From positions 1 to 27,639 of IMG/VR virus record IMGVR_UViG_3300001450_000206: DNA of 27,639 nt, one strand, 5' to 3'. The translations under genes and the position numbers were made by a program. This stretch comes from a virus. Positions 8,093 through 27,285 of the stretch are shown here, in pieces. The first letter of the stretch is position 1. The number at the start of each line of letters is the position of its first letter. Under the pieces are notes generated by a model that did not search any database, was not told where the DNA came from, and saw only the letters and a program-made list of their open reading frames with translations.

Positions 8093-8828
8093 CATATCCC
8101 TCGATCAAGTGTGTATCGCGGCGGTGCGTCAGCAAGCGGGGCTTCTTCCTCGTGTTGAAGATGAGGTGACCCAGAATCTTGCTGCTGTCGGTCCATGGTG
8201 CGAGGTCCTGCGGCCGGAACACAAACGGGGAATCTTGGAGCCGAGGGCGGGCCTCTCGCTCACCCCCGACGAGGTTGTACCACGAAGCCGGCAGAGGTGA
8301 CCGGTCAAAGTCGGTAGCCGTTGCCCACACCAGGAACGAAGGCCGCTCGTACGCCATGTAGGTGATAAAGTACCTCATGCGCTCGTGGAAGATGTCCAGA
8401 GCTACATCAAGGTGCTTCGACAGCTTGTCCATGTCCAGCCCATAGCAGTACGCCATCGTCGCAGCGTAGCCGTCGATGACATCTTTGTGGTTCGTGGGCA
8501 GGTGGCGGCGAAAATGGATTGATCCTAGCTCCCGAGGCGTAGGCACCAGGGAGTAGCGGAACGCCGGTAGGATGCTGGAGGGCCACGTCTTTGGCGAGAC
8601 GAACATGCGTTCCTGTAGAATCCAGTCACGGACAAATTCGTCCCCTCGAAGCATCATGTCGAGGGGTGCGAACACGTGACCTTTTGTCGCGTTGGGTTGC
8701 TTCAGCTTCTTCGAGCGCCATCGCAGAAGTGTCTGATAGGACTTCCCTGTAGTGCAACCCCGCACGGGCTTCTGGAGGATGAGTGCCAGAACCGCATTGA
8801 GGGCAGCAGGGCCTGCCTGTGCGGGCAT
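8082..8828 (-). CDS. protein of unknown function following the primase-helicase
   Basis: A 248-residue protein. The frame is open further upstream to 9188, but that part is antisense-like overlap within the primase gene; ATG 8828 forms a TAATG overlap with the primase stop and is the sensible start. The N-terminus (NAVLALILQKP, then a basic TTGKSYQTLLRWRSKKLKQP) could be a DNA-binding helix pair. The middle has LDMDKLSKHLDVALDIFHERMRYFITYMAYERP and the C-terminus is basic (NTRKKPRLLTHRRDTH). TTGKS resembles part of a P-loop, but no G-x4-GK[ST] and no Walker B are present. Family not recognised. Co-translation with the primase suggests a replication or packaging link. Confidence 0.7.
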   Translation of the reverse strand: MPAQAGPAALNAVLALILQKPVRGCTTGKSYQTLLRWRSKKLKQPNATKGHVFAPLDMMLRGDEFVRDWILQERMFVSPKTWPSSILPAFRYSLVPTPRELGSIHFRRHLPTNHKDVIDGYAATMAYCYGLDMDKLSKHLDVALDIFHERMRYFITYMAYERPSFLVWATATDFDRSPLPASWYNLVGGEREARPRLQDSPFVFRPQDLAPWTDSSKILGHLIFNTRKKPRLLTHRRDTHLIEGYDGP

Positions 8829-11284
8829 TAGTGAACACCCCGGTTGCCCATGAGCGTGTCCACCGCCGAGTGTCGGATGCCGATCCCCACCCAGGCACGC
8901 ACGCTCCGACGCACATTCCCGTTGTGGATGTACCGAGGCATTGCACGGAAGCCCCGCTCGGAGAGTTGCCGCCCAAACAACGGGTAGCCAACAGGCTTCT
9001 GGTAGAAGCTGTCGCACCAGCTCTTGTACGCGATGTACAAGTCCTTCTTTGGCGTGGCCTCGCCCGCATCCAGAATGCACGCCTCGGATAGGAACTCGGC
9101 GAGCATGTCCATCTCTTCCCGGTACTCGTTCGTCGCCATGCGAACCTTCTCGGGAGGACGCAGCCCATCCTTCTGCCAATCCCGGCAACCTTCGACCAGC
9201 TTACACAGGATGCCAGGGGCTTCCTTTTTCAACTTGTCCAGGAAGAACTGGTCTTTCTTCTCAATCTTCCGCTCCCACGGGAGACGCAGAACGCGACGCC
9301 AGATGCCCTCGTCGTTGCCCTTGATGATGGGCCGATGGTTAGCCGCGATAATGAGCTTGTGCGTCGGGTCGAACTCATAGAAGTCCTGGCGCATCTTCCG
9401 GGCACGGATGCGGTCGGAGCCCGTCAGCTGCTTGATGAGCGCCTCGGCAAACGGCTTGCCCTTCTCGACCTCACTGTTGGCCACGAACCGCACGCCCTCC
9501 AGGTCTGCCACCTCGGTAGGGTGAGACTCGTTCTGCTTCGCCATCAGGAGCCCTGGAGCGCCCTGGATGGCGTAGTCTCCCAGCACGTACATCAGGATGA
9601 GCAGGGCTGTCGTCTTTCCGTTCTGTCCGGTGCCCTCCATGAAGAGCAGGACCTGCTCGACGCAGAGCCCAGTGAGGCAGTAGCCGAAGAACCGGTGGAT
9701 GAACGCGACAGTATCAGGGTCACCCATGAAGGCATAGTCGAGAAACGTGTCCCACAGGGGGCATTCGGCGTCTTCTACCCATTCTACGGGGCTAACCTTG
9801 GTAATATAGTCCGTTCGGTCGTGCATCGAGAGCACGCCCGTACGGAGGTCGATTGTGCCGTTTTGGACGTTGAACAGCCAAGGATCCCGGTCTAGACGGC
9901 TGGATGTGACCGCCACGCCCTGCTCGGTGGACGCCAACTGCACCATAGCCCCGAGGGCGCGGGCCGATTCCGACCTTAGGGCGTGCTTCAGGAGGCGTTG
10001 CTGCTGTTGAGCGTCCGTACTGGAGGCAGCGGCGGCGAATATCCCGGCTACTGCTGCCTTTGCCCTACGATGAATCGCCCCATCCATATCTCGCTTCCAT
10101 CGCTTCCCGTTGTACAGGAACCACTGCCGATAGGTCACGCAGAACACCAGTTCGTGCTGAAATGCGGCCACCATGCGGCGTGCGTTGCCCAAATCCGTCA
10201 GATTCGGGGCAGTGGCGGACGATACGCGGACCTGGGCCGGGGATAGGGGGGCAGCCCCACCGAATGGCACTCCTGCCAGCTTTTGAAGGTTCTTCCACCC
10301 CTTTGAGCGGCCCTTCTTGTCCTTTTCGGCCCCCTTGCACGTCTTATGCAGGCAACCTGCGGCGATTCCGTTGTCTGCGAACTGGATGACGTACGCAGAC
10401 CGGTCGGTGTGGGTGTCATCCCAGGGGCATACGTCGAAAACCCACCGCCGACCGTTGCCCTGCCACGGACTTGGCCCCTGTGCCGCCGGAAAGTGGTCCT
10501 TCATGTACGTGTCGAGGGAGCCCGTGGGGGCATTGCCCTCTTTGGCGCCCGAATCGGGCAGCAACTGGGCCAATTCGTCCAGTTGTTCGCGCGTTACCGG
10601 CCCCCCGCAGGGCTTCTTGGACAACATGAGGGCGCGACGGTGGGGTCGCTCCTCCGTACTGTCCCCTTTCCGGGCCACAGTGCCGTACATCTTCCAGATT
10701 CGGGCCGGATTGAAGACCGTTGGGTCCACTTTGGCCCAGTCGTTGTCGAACAGGAAGCCCAGGACGGCCAGAATCCGCCGAATCACGTCCGAATCGGCCT
10801 CCTGCACCTGGTACATCAGGTGGTAGCCGTTGCCAGACGACCCAAACAGGGGGGTTGGCCAGCCCCGCTTCTTCAAAAACGAGACCATTGCGGCTGCGAG
10901 GGATGCTGCTTGTGCCTTTTCCTCGTCTGTGGAGGCGCAATCCTTCGGCCTCTCGGGGTCAATGTCGATGAGGAGCCATCGGGGGCTCAACACGTCGATG
11001 TCTTTGGCGAGTGCACCCCGTGATGCGGGGGAGGCTTGGTTCGTGATCGAACTCGTGACCGTCCCCTTCAACGGGTTGGGGGTGAAATAGACGCCTCCGG
11101 CGCCCATATCTGACAGCTGGGCCGCCGCAGCGGCCATCTTCTCTACGTCATCGAAGAAGCCCGAGAAGGTTCGGGGGCCTTCCGAGGTCGGAACGTGGAG
11201 GGCGCGAAGCTCGATGATCTGCCCCTCCTCACAGATGTACTGGAGAGCGGCAAGAACGTGCTCGGGAGATGCGACTAGGGACAT
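8828..11284 (-). CDS. primase-helicase (PrimPol domain + D5/P4-type SF3 helicase)
   Basis: An 818-residue replication protein that should synthesise primers and unwind DNA. The N-terminal PrimPol-like domain shows Asp107/Asp109 (LLIDIDPERP), SSGNGYH (149-155) and the family signature NPARIWKMYGTVARKG (192-207). A Cys/His group follows (CPWDDTH at 286, CLHKTC at 311-316), resembling the zinc-like segment of P4-family proteins. A D5_N-type linker is at about 465-515 (FNVQNGTIDLRTG). The helicase has Walker A GTGQNGKTT (551-559), Walker B/sensor segments LEGVRFVANSEVE and KLIIAANHRP, and Arg finger region GIWRRVLRLPWE (660-671). The ATG at 11284 follows GAGGCGG. It sits in the leftward arm with packaging genes, away from the other replication genes. 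Confidence 0.93.
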   Translation of the reverse strand: MSLVASPEHVLAALQYICEEGQIIELRALHVPTSEGPRTFSGFFDDVEKMAAAAAQLSDMGAGGVYFTPNPLKGTVTSSITNQASPASRGALAKDIDVLSPRWLLIDIDPERPKDCASTDEEKAQAASLAAAMVSFLKKRGWPTPLFGSSGNGYHLMYQVQEADSDVIRRILAVLGFLFDNDWAKVDPTVFNPARIWKMYGTVARKGDSTEERPHRRALMLSKKPCGGPVTREQLDELAQLLPDSGAKEGNAPTGSLDTYMKDHFPAAQGPSPWQGNGRRWVFDVCPWDDTHTDRSAYVIQFADNGIAAGCLHKTCKGAEKDKKGRSKGWKNLQKLAGVPFGGAAPLSPAQVRVSSATAPNLTDLGNARRMVAAFQHELVFCVTYRQWFLYNGKRWKRDMDGAIHRRAKAAVAGIFAAAASSTDAQQQQRLLKHALRSESARALGAMVQLASTEQGVAVTSSRLDRDPWLFNVQNGTIDLRTGVLSMHDRTDYITKVSPVEWVEDAECPLWDTFLDYAFMGDPDTVAFIHRFFGYCLTGLCVEQVLLFMEGTGQNGKTTALLILMYVLGDYAIQGAPGLLMAKQNESHPTEVADLEGVRFVANSEVEKGKPFAEALIKQLTGSDRIRARKMRQDFYEFDPTHKLIIAANHRPIIKGNDEGIWRRVLRLPWERKIEKKDQFFLDKLKKEAPGILCKLVEGCRDWQKDGLRPPEKVRMATNEYREEMDMLAEFLSEACILDAGEATPKKDLYIAYKSWCDSFYQKPVGYPLFGRQLSERGFRAMPRYIHNGNVRRSVRAWVGIGIRHSAVDTLMGNRGVH

Positions 11285-11292
11285 GTACCGCC

Positions 11293-11538
11293 TCAGACCA
11301 GGTTGAGTTCATCGTCACGGTGCCGCAGCACGTAGCTGAGCGCACTTCCGTGCGTGGCTACCCACTGCATCACAGCCGCGTGGCTGATCCGCCGCCGACC
11401 GTTCGGCAACTTCTCGGCGGGTAGCTTACCCTGTGCGACGATGCGACGGATATGCTGGGGGTGATAACCCAGGAGTTCCGCCACTTCTGGCATGGTGTAG
11501 TAGTCCCGGAGCTGAACCGGAGACGGGTTGTCGGACAT
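11293..11538 (-). CDS. excisionase-like winged HTH DNA-binding protein
   Basis: An 81-residue protein. Residues 13-60 (YYTMPEVAELLGYHPQHIRR, then IVAQGKLPAEKLPNGRRRIS) form the compact winged HTH typical of excisionase/MerR-like proteins: helix-turn-helix, then a wing with GRRRIS, then HAAVMQWV. It has a strong AGGAGG ribosome-binding site 4-5 bases before ATG 11538. It is the first gene of the leftward arm and faces the repeat-rich central region, so it may bind the operator repeats at its own promoter and regulate the arm. No integrase is present in the window, so a role in excision is not supported here. Confidence 0.85.
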   Translation of the reverse strand: MSDNPSPVQLRDYYTMPEVAELLGYHPQHIRRIVAQGKLPAEKLPNGRRRISHAAVMQWVATHGSALSYVLRHRDDELNLV

Positions 11539-11562: not shown

Positions 11563-11590
11563 TGTAGCACCTGTAGCACTCTGTTGTCAA
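11563..11590 (-). promoter_or_regulatory. candidate promoter of leftward arm with tandem operator
   Basis: Read on the minus strand, a perfect TTGACA (11590-11585) is followed after 18 bases by TACAAG (11566-11561). This resembles a sigma70-type promoter about 25-50 bases upstream of the HTH gene start. Two direct copies of GTGCTACA (plus-strand TGTAGCAC at 11563-11570 and 11572-11579, 9-bp period) overlap the spacer and -10 box. The same TGTAGCA core recurs in the nearby repeat cluster, so binding there by a phage regulator would repress the leftward arm. The promoter is inferred from sequence only. Confidence 0.5.
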
Positions 11591-11749
11591 AAAAACAGAT
11601 AAGCCCCTGCTGCCGCCGTTGCGCTTCAGTACATGGGTGTCGTCGTGACTGTGAATGAAACACCGACACATTCTGCATTGGTTGAAACCTTAGACGGACA
11701 AACCTCGACAATGCCACTATGGGTCGACAGTCACTGTCGATTCCGACTC

Positions 11750-12126
11750 TGTAGCCTAAGGCTACAACTTACTACAGGTTACTACGGGTTACTACACCCC
11801 GGTGTAGTAAGGAAAGTGAAGGTTCATCCAGGCGTCTCACCGATTACTACACTTACTACACTTTTCTCCCCATAGCGCCCTAGAGAAAGTACTCTGACCG
11901 TGCTACAATGTAGCAGGGTAAAACAGCTTTCTCTACTCTTATGGTCAACTAAAAGACTAAACGTAGTAAATTAGATATTACCCTGGTGCAACCAGAGGTA
12001 TCGCTACTACGCTTTTACTACACCCTTTTTTGAGTGGACGATACTGGAGGGAGCAGCGGCGATATGCTTACTACACTTTTGAGAGGCGACAGTGGAAAAG
12101 TGTAGTAAGCGTAGTAAGTTGTAGCA
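11750..12126. repeat. TTACTACA/TGTAGTAA iteron cluster (origin or operator candidate)
   Basis: This gene-free stretch holds many copies of a TTACTACA-like element and its complement. TGTAGCC-TAA-GGCTACA is at 11750-11766. Three tandem 10-bp units (TTACTACAGG, TTACTACGGG, TTACTACACC) run 11769-11798, and the last pairs with GGTGTAGTAA at 11801-11810. Two 9-bp TTACTACAC units are at 11844-11861. TGCTACA-A-TGTAGCA is at 11901-11915. Single copies are at 11962, 12004 and 12015. A 15-bp inverted repeat has arms at 12066-12080 and 12096-12110, followed by CGTAGTAA (12110) and TTGTAGCA (12119). The 9-10 bp phasing and mixture of direct and inverted copies suggest cooperative protein binding, as in replication origins or multi-site operators. 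Confidence 0.85.
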
Positions 12127-12296: not shown

Positions 12297-12337
12297 GCCC
12301 TTGACACGTCAACCCTTAGCCCTTGACACGTCAACCC
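12297..12337. repeat. twin 19-bp direct repeat containing TTGAC-AC-GTCAA dyad
   Basis: GCCCTTGACACGTCAACCC occurs exactly at 12297-12315 and again at 12319-12337, a period of 22 bp (about two helical turns). Each copy contains the near-palindrome TTGAC-AC-GTCAA and also a perfect TTGACA that could serve as a -35 box. It could be a pair of repressor sites or duplicated promoter elements for the rightward arm. The flanking sequence is GC-rich with repeated GGACCGG strings and shows no clear -10 box. Confidence 0.65.
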
Positions 12338-12426
12338 CCAGCCGGACCGGACCGGCTAGGACCGGGAGAGAGGGACCGGGTACCCCGGATGGGGAGAGGT
12401 TCCGACCAGCTAGGCCGGGGGTCTAC

Positions 12427-20542: not shown

Positions 20543-21975
20543 TGCTTAGGGAGTTCGTCACTGACGGATTCCTCACGCCCTACCAGGAGGATGTCCTCGC
20601 AGACACACGCAAGGACATCTTCTTCCATTGGGCTTGTGGGGCCGGTAAGACAGCCGGGGCCTTCGTTTGGTTGTCCAAGGGTGCGCCAGACGAGAAGGTC
20701 GTCATCGTCACCCGAGCCCCGACCACAGCACAGTGGGTTAGAGAGGCACAGAAGTACACCACCCTGCGACCCGAGGTACTACGGGGCAAGGCGCCCTACG
20801 CCCCCCGGTCACACATCGTCGTGCTGTCCTGGGCTGTCGTCCGGGACTGGGCGCCCCATCTCATCCAGTGGGCACGGGGTTGTCCCCTTGCTGTAGTCTG
20901 GGATGAGATACACAAGGGCAAGTCGTGGAAGCGGAAGGAGAGGTTGGTCGCGAGGGATGGTAGCGTGTACCATAGCTGGTTGGATAACCGGGCAGCGGCT
21001 TGCGCTAAGCTGGCGAAGGCTTCGACCCGTCGACTCGGGCTAACGGCAACGCCGGTTAGGGACAGGCGCTCCGACCTCTGGGCACAGATGGACCTCGTCC
21101 AGCCCGGGGAGTGGGGCAGCAACTGGGAGTTCATCCACCGCTACTGTGACGCGAGGCCCGGTCGCTTCGGTGGCATTGACGCCACAGGGGAGAGCAACAC
21201 CGACGAGCTACGGCAGCGGCTAGAGCGTGTCATGTCCGTAGTGACGAAGGAGGAAGCGAGCAGGCACCTACCGCCCCTGACTCGAAGCCTCATCTACTTG
21301 GGTAAGGAGGAACAGAGTAGGCCAGCGGGCTTCAAGCAGGACATGAAGCAAGCATCCAAGCGAGGCAAGGGTGCCTTGTTCGAGATGAAGTTGTTGGAGG
21401 CAGCATCACGTAAGCGTGTCTGGATTGCAGACACAGTCAGGGATGCTGTGCTCGAAGACCAGCAGAAGGTGGTGGTCTTTACGGGACGACGCAAGGACGC
21501 TGAAGCCCTGGCGAAGCTCATCAAGACACGGCTCAAGGACAAGGCACCCATGTGGTGGGGGCACGGTGGTGTCTCGACCAAGGAGCGGGATGAGATGGTC
21601 TCGGCTTACGCCGCCACCGAGGTAGGGTGCGCGTTTGTAGGGACGACCGATGCCTTCGGTGAGGCAGTCGACGGGCTACAGAACACAGACCTAGCTGTGT
21701 TCGGCTTGCTACCTTGGACACCTGGCATGGTGACACAGGCAGAAGGCCGCTTTAGTAGGCATGGTTCGCAGAGGTCAGTCCACATCATGTACACTGTCGC
21801 AGAGGGCACAGTGGACGAGCATGTGGCGGACACGTTACTGGACAAGCTAGAGCAGGTTGTCAACACCATTGATGACCCGACGGCTGTTGGTATCGCTGAT
21901 ACTCTCGGTAGTACGGACGATGCTGACGATATTATCCAGAGTGTGTTTGACCTATTCGGAGGTAGTGATGAGTGA
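20542..21975 (+). CDS. SF2 (SNF2/DEAD-like) DNA helicase
   Basis: A 477-residue ATP-dependent helicase or translocase, likely for replication or recombination. The order of motifs is: a Q-like motif (LTPYQEDVL, 11-19), Walker A ACGAGKT (31-37), Ia (VVIVTRAPTTAQW), DEIH box (121-124), motif III LGLTATP (165-171), a C-terminal RecA-like domain with KVVVFTGRRKDAEAL, an AFGEAVDGLQNTD segment, and motif VI QAEGRFSRHGSQ. It lacks an obvious extra nuclease domain. ATG 20542 is used (a GTG 3 bases upstream is possible) and overlaps the previous stop. The HTH gene begins within its last codons. Confidence 0.9.
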   Translation: MLREFVTDGFLTPYQEDVLADTRKDIFFHWACGAGKTAGAFVWLSKGAPDEKVVIVTRAPTTAQWVREAQKYTTLRPEVLRGKAPYAPRSHIVVLSWAVVRDWAPHLIQWARGCPLAVVWDEIHKGKSWKRKERLVARDGSVYHSWLDNRAAACAKLAKASTRRLGLTATPVRDRRSDLWAQMDLVQPGEWGSNWEFIHRYCDARPGRFGGIDATGESNTDELRQRLERVMSVVTKEEASRHLPPLTRSLIYLGKEEQSRPAGFKQDMKQASKRGKGALFEMKLLEAASRKRVWIADTVRDAVLEDQQKVVVFTGRRKDAEALAKLIKTRLKDKAPMWWGHGGVSTKERDEMVSAYAATEVGCAFVGTTDAFGEAVDGLQNTDLAVFGLLPWTPGMVTQAEGRFSRHGSQRSVHIMYTVAEGTVDEHVADTLLDKLEQVVNTIDDPTAVGIADTLGSTDDADDIIQSVFDLFGGSDE

Positions 21976-22147
21976 CGATGTGAAGCTGCTGACTGTACGA
22001 GAAGTGGCAGACTGGTTGGGCTTGTCCATCCACGCCATCTACCGGAAGGTGCAGCAGAAGGAGATTCCCCACATGCGTATCGGCGAACGCACGGTACGCT
22101 TTAACCGGAGCAAGGTAGAAGCCTGGCTCAAACAACTGGAGCAGTAA
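21968..22147 (+). CDS. excisionase-family HTH protein
   Basis: A 59-residue protein from ATG 21968, 5 bases after GGAGG, overlapping the helicase end by 8 bases. Nearly the whole chain is an excisionase-type (HTH_17) domain: LLTVREVADWLGLSIHAIYR, KVQQKEIPHMRIGE, RTVRFNRSKVEAWLKQLEQ. The wing GERTVRF and helix SKVEAWL are characteristic. It is the second such protein in this window, distinct from that at 11293. It probably acts as a small regulator or recombination directionality factor; with no integrase seen, a regulatory role is more likely. Confidence 0.9.
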   Translation: MSDDVKLLTVREVADWLGLSIHAIYRKVQQKEIPHMRIGERTVRFNRSKVEAWLKQLEQ

Positions 22148-24831: not shown

Positions 24832-27285
24832 ATGGACTGTGCCGACTGCGCCAACTGCCCCCTCCGTACGTACTGGGAGAAGAAGGGCGCCTGGCAACCT
24901 GTTCCCTTCGAGAGCAACGGTAGCGACATTCTCGTCCTCGGTGACGCCCCCTCCAAGCAGGATGCAGTGACCCGGCGTCCGTTTACGGATGCACATGGCA
25001 TCACTGTGATGGAAGAGCTACGCCGCATGGGTGTGGGTCAGAGGTTCGGCGTGGACTGGGGCAACCTCCTGGGCTGCCGTTGGCCTGACGACAACCCTAA
25101 GACGTACCTGGCTAAGCTGAAGGGACAGAACAGGCGTCGGGTCAAGGCAGGGAAGAAGCCTCTCCAGAGCCCCCTGAAGGCTTGCTGGGGCTACGTAGAG
25201 AAGCAGCTAGGTCGATACACCACTGTGCTCACGCTCGGCCCTCACGCCACCAAGGCGCTCCTCGATGGCAACCCCTCGTTGGAGGCTGTACGAGGTGGCC
25301 CAACGAAGGCAGGTGCGCTCAAGGTCCTGCCGACCTACCACCCCCGACTGCTCCAGGTGAAGCCCGAGCTACGGGAGGTCTTCGCTATCGACGTGGCGAA
25401 GATGCTCCGCTGGCATGACGATGCGCTCATGTGGCAGGACCCCGTGGTCCACTACCAACCCACTCCCGAGTTCGCCGCCGAGTGGTACCTGGCCAACCAG
25501 GGCAAGCAACTTGCCTACGACGTTGAGACGGATGGCGTGGACAGCCTCACCGCAGGGCTACGGTGCATCGGCATCGGCACGTCGAGTGAAGTCCTCATGC
25601 TGGGCTTCCTCTCCGTGGATGGGAAGACCCAGCTGTACAGCCCTGCTGATGAGGCGATGCACAAGAAGCTTCTGTGCAAGGTCCTCACCCACACAGCCTG
25701 GGTCAAGGTCGGGCACAACGCTGGGTACTTCGACAGGACCGTCATCGAGCAGCACCTGGGTGTCACCCCCACGCCCCTCATCGACACCATCCTCCTGCAC
25801 AAGCTGGCAGCGTCAGAGCACAAGCACCGCCTGGGCTTCGTTGCGTCCATGCTTCTCGACGTGCCAGCCTGGAAGGCAGACCACACGGGAGTCACAGCAC
25901 AGACTGACCGTGACCTGCATGAGTACTGTGCCACGGATGTAGCCGTCACAGCACGTGTGGTGAGGCCCCTTCAGGGGACGATGGCGTACCGTAGGCAGGA
26001 GCACCTCTACACCTTTGATGCCAAGGTGCAGGACCTCTGTGCTGGGATGCACCGCCTTGGGATGCGGGTAGACGAACGGCGCCGAGCCCAGCACGCTGCC
26101 GAGCAGACCGCCGAGGCTACGAAGTGGCTGCAAGTTATTCAGGAGGCACGCCCTGGTCTCAACCCACGCAGCACAGCACAGATGCGTGAGTTGCTCTTCA
26201 ACGACTGGGGGCTCCCACCGCATGACTACACGGACGCAGGTGAGCCCCGGACCAACGCTGCTTCGGTGCGGAACTTCTTAGTCAACCCACTGTTGGATGC
26301 GGAGCAGAAGCAACTGCTCAAGGCCATCAAGTTCTACCGTAGGGCAGACAAGCTGCTCGGCACCTACCTGCGCAAGCTGGCACCCGGCGCAGGAGTCGTC
26401 ACCCCCGAGGGCTACGTCCACCCAGACTACAACAGCCACGGGACAGTGACGGGGCGACTGTCTAGTTCCAACCCCAACTTCCAGAACATCCCCTTCTTCC
26501 TACGGGACATGTTCATCCCCCCACCGGGCTGTGTGTTCGTCGGGGCAGACTACGACCAGCTAGAGCTACGCTTCGCCGCAGCCCTCGCAGGTACACAGAA
26601 CTACCTCGATGCCTTCGAGAAGCAGGAGATTGACCCTCACAACCTGACGGCTGACCTCATGTTCGGGGACAAGTTCTGGCAGGCACAGGGAGCCCCGGAC
26701 ACGAAGATGGGCAAGGGTAAGGGGCAGTTCAAGAAGCTGCGGAACCTCGCCAAGGGCATCTGCTTCTCGTCCCTGTACGGGGCAGCCCCACCCAAGGTGC
26801 TGGAGATTATCCACCAGGCAGAGGACGACGAGGGCAACATGCTCTACGCCGACCTCGACTTACGACAGGTCCGTACCCTACATCGCACGTGGCTACAGCG
26901 TGCCTCCGAGTTCAAGGCATGGTGGAACCAGACCACTGATGAGCTACGCCACCTGGGCTACCTGACCGAGCCCGTGCTGAAGCGGCGCAGGTACTTTGCG
27001 GACATGGACTATAACGCAGCTTTGAACTACCGTGTCCAAGCCGGGGGCTTCGCGGTGGTGGCCAAGGCCATGATAGAACTGGTCGAGCAGCACCTGCCCT
27101 TCGACTACGGGCAGCGCACGGGCCTGGTCAACCAGCTGCACGATGCTGTGCTCTTCGCCGTGCCCGAGAGCCGCGCCGACCAGGTGTCACAGATTGTCAC
27201 AGAAACACTCACATCAACCGTCGCCGGACTACCGGTGACATTCACCGCAGAAGCAGAAGTAGGACAAACATGGAAGGACGTATGA
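24832..27285 (+). CDS. DNA polymerase I with N-terminal uracil-DNA-glycosylase domain
   Basis: An 817-residue replicative enzyme. Residues 1-195 resemble a family-4 UDG: cysteines C6-x2-C9, C82 and C118 (4Fe-4S ligands), GDAPSKQD (37-44, the GEAPG-like motif) and PTYHPRLL (167-174, HPS-like). A 3'-5' exonuclease follows: AYDVETDG (Asp230, Glu232), GHNAGYFD (294-301) and HEYCATD (Tyr365, Asp369). The polymerase has motif A GADYDQLELR (571-580), motif B LRNLAKGICFSSLYG with Arg637, Lys641, Phe645, Tyr649, and motif C LHDAVLF (Asp771), with Ala replacing the usual Glu. There is no 5'-3' exonuclease. ATG 24832 follows AGAGGACACAC. The stop overlaps the next start (ATGA). Confidence 0.95.
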   Translation: MDCADCANCPLRTYWEKKGAWQPVPFESNGSDILVLGDAPSKQDAVTRRPFTDAHGITVMEELRRMGVGQRFGVDWGNLLGCRWPDDNPKTYLAKLKGQNRRRVKAGKKPLQSPLKACWGYVEKQLGRYTTVLTLGPHATKALLDGNPSLEAVRGGPTKAGALKVLPTYHPRLLQVKPELREVFAIDVAKMLRWHDDALMWQDPVVHYQPTPEFAAEWYLANQGKQLAYDVETDGVDSLTAGLRCIGIGTSSEVLMLGFLSVDGKTQLYSPADEAMHKKLLCKVLTHTAWVKVGHNAGYFDRTVIEQHLGVTPTPLIDTILLHKLAASEHKHRLGFVASMLLDVPAWKADHTGVTAQTDRDLHEYCATDVAVTARVVRPLQGTMAYRRQEHLYTFDAKVQDLCAGMHRLGMRVDERRRAQHAAEQTAEATKWLQVIQEARPGLNPRSTAQMRELLFNDWGLPPHDYTDAGEPRTNAASVRNFLVNPLLDAEQKQLLKAIKFYRRADKLLGTYLRKLAPGAGVVTPEGYVHPDYNSHGTVTGRLSSSNPNFQNIPFFLRDMFIPPPGCVFVGADYDQLELRFAAALAGTQNYLDAFEKQEIDPHNLTADLMFGDKFWQAQGAPDTKMGKGKGQFKKLRNLAKGICFSSLYGAAPPKVLEIIHQAEDDEGNMLYADLDLRQVRTLHRTWLQRASEFKAWWNQTTDELRHLGYLTEPVLKRRRYFADMDYNAALNYRVQAGGFAVVAKAMIELVEQHLPFDYGQRTGLVNQLHDAVLFAVPESRADQVSQIVTETLTSTVAGLPVTFTAEAEVGQTWKDV

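Follow-up and report, generated by a model that had tools for sequence, protein, structure and literature searches.

The window analysed here, a virus record of 27,639 bp from IMG/VR taken at full length, consists of two divergent arms around a field of short repeats, the arrangement that the original prediction had described. The left arm, on the minus strand, encodes a portal protein, a terminase-like protein, a primase-helicase of 818 aa (8828-11284) and, as the first gene of the leftward operon, an HTH_17 protein of 81 aa (11293-11538; Pfam PF12728, E 1.3e-12). The primase-helicase combines an AEP-like N-terminus, a D5_N domain, a DUF5906 SF3 helicase and a C-terminal winged helix. The right arm, on the plus strand, encodes an SNF2-type helicase, an exonuclease, a Sak4-like protein and PolA with a UDG domain, and the repeat field lies between the arms, just 5' of the HTH_17 and primase-helicase genes. 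Satellites are recognized by the lack of capsid genes of their own, and the matches to a portal and a terminase large subunit set the window apart from them. Elsewhere in the right arm, a single ORF (24832-27285, plus strand) joins a uracil-DNA-glycosylase-like domain to a following family A DNA polymerase, and the ORF at 21857-22147 (plus strand) has a second HTH_17-like match (E 5.5e-6). Rfam and tRNA scans returned no matches.

The field is built from iterons of 7-8 bp with the core TGTAGTAA, arranged within 360 bp as two sets around an AT-enriched gap of about 100 bp. The window has 21 copies of the motif TGTAG(T/C)A, compared with a mean of 3.9 and a largest value of 12 in shuffled sequences, and 13 of these copies fall in 11563-12126; inclusion of the variant CGTAGTAA (11779, 11962 and 12110) and of the copy at 12004 brings the field to about 17 cores. 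For the motif [TC]GTAG[TC]A, the densest 564 bp hold 17 copies, whereas neither 500 Markov shuffles of the whole window nor 1000 shuffles of the local region ever placed more than 4 together. The expectation of more than 15 cores in about 560 bases, far above chance, is thus borne out.

The gene-proximal half (11769-11860, minus strand) comprises six sites, at 11853-11860, 11844-11851, 11803-11810 (inverted), 11789-11796, 11779-11786 and 11769-11776, which read >><>>> towards the primase with spacings of 9, 40, 15, 10 and 10 bp. It is followed by the gap (11861-11961; 58% A+T against 41% in the window), which is the probable melting region and contains a 7-1-7 dyad, TGCTACAATGTAGCA, at 11901-11915. 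The distal half (11962-12126), with sites at 11962-11969, 12004-12010 (degenerate), 12015-12022, 12068-12075, 12101-12108, 12110-12117 and 12120-12126, has a looser geometry than its counterparts in related loci. The tandem groups and dyads noted originally were recovered, namely 10-bp periodicity at 11769-11796, 9-10-bp periodicity at 11844-11860 and 12101-12126, a 10-2-10 dyad at 11789-11810 and the 7-1-7 dyad in the gap; the inverted repeat reported nearby spans 12063-12113, with arms of 18 nt that are 94% alike. No iteron cluster was found 3' of the window primase.

A second class of sites, TGTAGC(A/C), is represented by a tandem pair (11563-11578, plus strand, with TGTAGCA copies at 11563 and 11572) and by the dyads at 11750-11766 and 11901-11915, the former of which, TGTAGCCTAAGGCTACA, is specific to the window and adjoins the proximal half. 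These sites are absent from the corresponding region of two related loci, L029 and L048, and may serve regulation by the HTH_17 protein or by the initiator. Two copies had been said to overlap a candidate leftward promoter: the tandem pair indeed lies immediately 3' of a minus-strand TTGACA (11590-11585), which by eye marks a possible promoter, but a consensus scan did not call one. Between the field and this promoter lies an 8-1-8 dyad, TCGACAGTCACTGTCGA (11724-11740), found only in the window among three loci compared. On the other side, a 22-bp repeat beginning GCCCTTGACACGTCAACCC occurs twice in tandem (12297-12340); the copies are 91% alike, carry an inverted TTGAC/GTCAA and constitute a possible operator on the right side. 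The turning point of GC skew anticipated at the field does not stand out clearly in the window, and skew at the field in complete relatives is mixed.

A search with the primase-helicase yielded 18 relatives, most of them with 55-61% identity over most of the length, and the alignment of these led to 80 kept loci; 25 family loci, including the window, were mapped in full. In all 25, the primase gene is directly preceded by an HTH_17 gene and the repeat field lies upstream of the latter; in one of these loci, L017, the primase is cut by the contig end and the upstream field was recovered from the other end. The inner sites of the two sets are oppositely oriented in every mapped locus, the gap measures 87-124 bp (median 110), and its A+T content is 58-82% compared with 38-54% for the whole locus. 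In many halves an inverted site lies 40-46 bp from the inner pair, in some this distance is 50-58 bp, and some halves lack the inversion. In six complete or long relatives, no other part of the contig has the core packed as densely as this field. In L032 (601-830), the iteron field is preceded by a second dense cluster made up of 11 CTTGACA copies.

The letters of the core change from lineage to lineage: alongside TGTAGTAA in the window, we found TGTAGTCA, TGTAGTTT, TGTGGTTT, CGTAGTA, CGTAGAAA and [TC]GTAGACA, as well as AGTAGACA, TGTAGACG, TGTAACC, TGTAACCA, TGTAACAA, TGTAACCT and GGTAGCA. The clearest single case of core change with retention of the layout is the 10-2-10 dyad, which reads TTACTACACC-CC-GGTGTAGTAA in the window and TGACTACACTTGGGTGTAGTCA in L029 and L048, both arms having changed together. 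Because the loci are related, 25 loci do not amount to 25 independent trials, yet repeated changes of the core have left the layout intact. The prediction that relatives would carry a TGTAG(T/C)A cluster at the same divergent center therefore holds for the place of the field and fails for its letters: TGTAGTAA is lineage-specific and what is conserved is the layout.

The conserved gene next to the field encodes a plausible initiator. Pfam models match the primase-helicase in the order D5_N (PF08706, E 9.5e-31), DUF5906 (PF19263, E 3.6e-9) and Pox_D5 (PF03288, E 4.5e-5); the full protein matches the SaPI5 primase-helicase in structure (Z 20.8) and in sequence (E 2e-7), its helicase part matches both the SaPI5 enzyme and vaccinia D5, and for residues 1-246 the matches are archaeo-eukaryotic primases. 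Modelling gave a winged helix for the C-terminal 129 residues (pLDDT 82; winged helix at residues ~736-803). When the top Foldseek chains were re-examined, the leading matches were RFX DNA-binding domains (Z 8.0-9.4); next came, with Z 7.8 and an rmsd of 3.0 over 80 residues, the P4 origin-binding domain 1ka8 and, with Z 7.1, the terminal part of the ASFV PrimPol. Z values in the range of 7-8 can arise from a common arrangement, but the leaders are all winged helices, two of the three kinds coming from primase-helicases. The C-terminal domains of SaPI Rep and Cch2 are known to read iterons (PMC7581432). Judging from the model, the C-terminal winged helix of the primase-helicase is the likely iteron binder, and the HTH_17 protein is a less likely one. 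Covariation of the core with the protein is suggestive only: in a Mantel-type analysis controlled for the helicase, the partial r was 0.37 for residues 766-796 and 0.36 for an N-terminal window, which fails to separate the winged helix from the primase N-terminus. From the resemblance of its recognition helix to those of the TAAC type, L017 was predicted to have a TAAC core; the prediction was wrong, the core being GGTAGCA, and hence the recognition helix alone does not set the core.

The same geometry recurs beyond the family. Read outward, the annotated type-1 repeats of the P4 ori run >><>>> with spacings of 10, 43, 22, 11 and 10 bp, so that order and orientation are identical to those of the proximal half in the window and the spacing is similar, with the third interval off by 7 bp; about 3 in 10,000 random six-site arrays come as close to the P4 ori as does this half. 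In Bacillus phage phi105 (L175:5440-5700), unannotated GTAACA repeats 3' of gp60 are laid out as << gap 85-90 bp >> 44 bp < 13 bp >, with a very AT-rich gap, and we consider them to be the probable phi105 origin on the strength of this arrangement. Across the wider family, phages and prophages with the field 3' of the primase are numerous and include phi105, AcaML1 and Listeria phage B025. No iteron cluster was found beside the primase in TG1 and CallinAllBarbz, and in Pumpkins the sequence beside the primase has just a weak palindromic repeat, CGACGTC.

A complementary scan of viral contigs used two 18-base patterns of paired iterons and no protein reference. Records with at least 6 cores in 450 bp were taken as field records (n = 47, two known family members being left out), and 48 records with the pattern but without a field served as controls. 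A DUF5906 helicase is encoded in 26 of the 47 field records compared with 1 of the 48 controls (Fisher P ~2e-9, an optimistic value because the field records include near-duplicates); the remaining 21 field records, some of which are short fragments, have no DUF5906 match. Some of the proteins encoded next to fields are primase-helicases of the VapE or DUF5906 type that are unlike that of the window, and the geometry of these fields is related nonetheless. For the most part, same-core scans for closer relatives likewise led to other phages whose fields have a related geometry. Four loci (L357, L353, L366 and L184) have GTAGTCA/GTAGTAA fields of similar geometry and no recognized helicase nearby, and the field of L357 adjoins tail genes.

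Taken as a pattern of sequence, the field fits a bipartite replication origin of the P4/PICI type located 5' of its initiator gene. The repeats, their geometry, their position by the initiator gene, the domain layout of the protein and the change of core at constant geometry can all be read from the sequences themselves. Given the conserved position, the bipartite geometry, the match to the P4 ori and the link to the primase-helicase gene, the suggestion of an origin to which a phage initiator binds is well supported, and we consider it highly probable that the field is a replication origin whose core is read by the winged helix of the primase-helicase, with two rings loading at the gap. We infer the following course of events. 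The primase-helicase would be produced from the operon beside the field, and its C-terminal winged helix would read the 7-8-bp core, such that initiator subunits occupy both iteron sets. With the inner sites opposed across a gap of ~100 bp, two helicase rings could form in a face-to-face arrangement and melt the gap; loaded on opposite strands, they would then move outward, each with its own primase, the AEP domain priming DNA synthesis and replication proceeding bidirectionally.

Conceivably, the field is an origin but the iterons are read by the HTH_17 protein, which would then recruit the helicase in a manner similar to lambda O, a protein that recruits the host helicase through P. The HTH_17 protein has a DNA-binding fold, its gene lies directly between the field and the primase gene in the mapped family loci, and the window resembles L029 and L048 in its divergent HTH_17 recognition helix as well as in its GTAGTnA cores. 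Against this stand fields of the same geometry for which no HTH_17 gene was found upstream of the primase: such a gene was detected there in just 2 of the 49 wider loci tested, so that the HTH_17 protein is unnecessary for the layout; none was found in phi105, and some field loci from the DNA-only scan have no match to the HTH_17 model of the window family. Moreover, HTH_17 distance does not track core distance (partial r 0.02, helicase controlled). With the HTH_17 protein alone as the query, no relatives were found in viral contigs or phages. We regard recruitment by HTH_17 as unlikely; the protein probably regulates the operon or assists as an accessory factor.

The other possibility raised originally, a transcriptional switch, would make the field an operator array at divergent promoters, with the HTH_17 protein or a repressor as its ligand and no origin involved. 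The position between the divergent arms, the two TGTAGCA copies near the possible leftward promoter and the window-specific TGTAGC dyads are compatible with such a role, but the P4 ori geometry is retained in phages whose field follows the primase on its 3' side and is remote from that promoter, and the DNA-only scan links fields to helicase genes. Furthermore, an HTH_17 operator array would be expected only where an HTH_17 gene is present, and the same geometry occurs in phages without one; a switch as the main role is accordingly quite improbable. Iteron arrays also mark plasmid centromeres, and the field might thus be a partition centromere or a packaging signal; the conserved gene partner is, however, a primase-helicase, and we assign this alternative hardly any weight.

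If the field is indeed an origin read by the primase-helicase, one origin grammar might be common to P4, PICIs and a broad spectrum of phages whose primase-helicases are of the SF3 or VapE type, a generalization that we regard as evenly balanced between true and false. Under this grammar, an inner pair of sites 8-10 bp apart would be followed by an inverted site ~42 bp further on and by 2-3 sites at 10-bp spacing, usually mirrored across a melting gap of ~100 bp; the assembly of the rings would fix the geometry, and the letters of the core would shift along with the winged helix. On this view, origins of the PICI type would be no peculiarity of satellites but a general phage design that can be placed on either side of the initiator gene. 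The layout was found in phages with structural genes, in phi105, beside several primase-helicase families and on either side of the gene. Fixed geometry combined with changing letters would provide a natural set of matched initiator-origin pairs, with which changes in winged-helix specificity and the positioning of helicase rings on DNA can be tested; the same pairs can also show whether a satellite takes over the origin used by its helper or keeps clear of it. In addition, the layout offers a simple means to find origins in uncultured phages.

Among known systems, the plasmid pRN1 (orf56/orf904) resembles the window in that a gene for a small DNA-binding protein is followed by a primase-helicase gene and in the combination of AEP, SF3 helicase and winged helix; its origin, unlike the window field, is formed not by iterons but by a stem-loop on the 3' side of the gene (PMC4234260). 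Phage phi105 shares the geometry and a D5-type primase-helicase, and differs in the location of the field 3' of the primase, in its core and in that no HTH_17 gene was found before the primase. With P4, the window shares short iterons in helical phase and an SF3 primase-helicase with a C-terminal origin-binding winged helix, the fold match being moderate. The P4 core is GGTGAACA as opposed to TGTAGTAA, and P4 ori and crr are 4.5 kb apart, whereas the halves in the window are separated by only ~100 bp and there is no separate distant crr. The window field also differs from the P4 origin in its placement 5' of the operon. The alpha protein of P4 has a TOPRIM-type primase (PMC4234260), in contrast to the AEP-like primase of the window, and P4 is a satellite, whereas the window represents a phage with portal and terminase genes. 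The PICI origins consist of two iteron sets around an AT-rich region, located 3' of rep (PMC6092414); the window, like PICIs and SaPIs, has two iteron sets flanking an AT-rich region beside a pri-rep gene and an initiator of the SaPI5 primase-helicase kind, but its field is 5' of the HTH_17-primase operon and, unlike PICIs, the element carries portal and terminase genes. In open papers, to which the search was largely confined, we found no description of the layout in such phages. Origins of the P4/PICI type are a known kind; what is new here is the element, namely a phage that carries portal and terminase genes, the placement of the field on the 5' side of the HTH_17-primase operon, and the observation of a single geometry with changing letters that spans P4, phi105, the window family and VapE-type phages.
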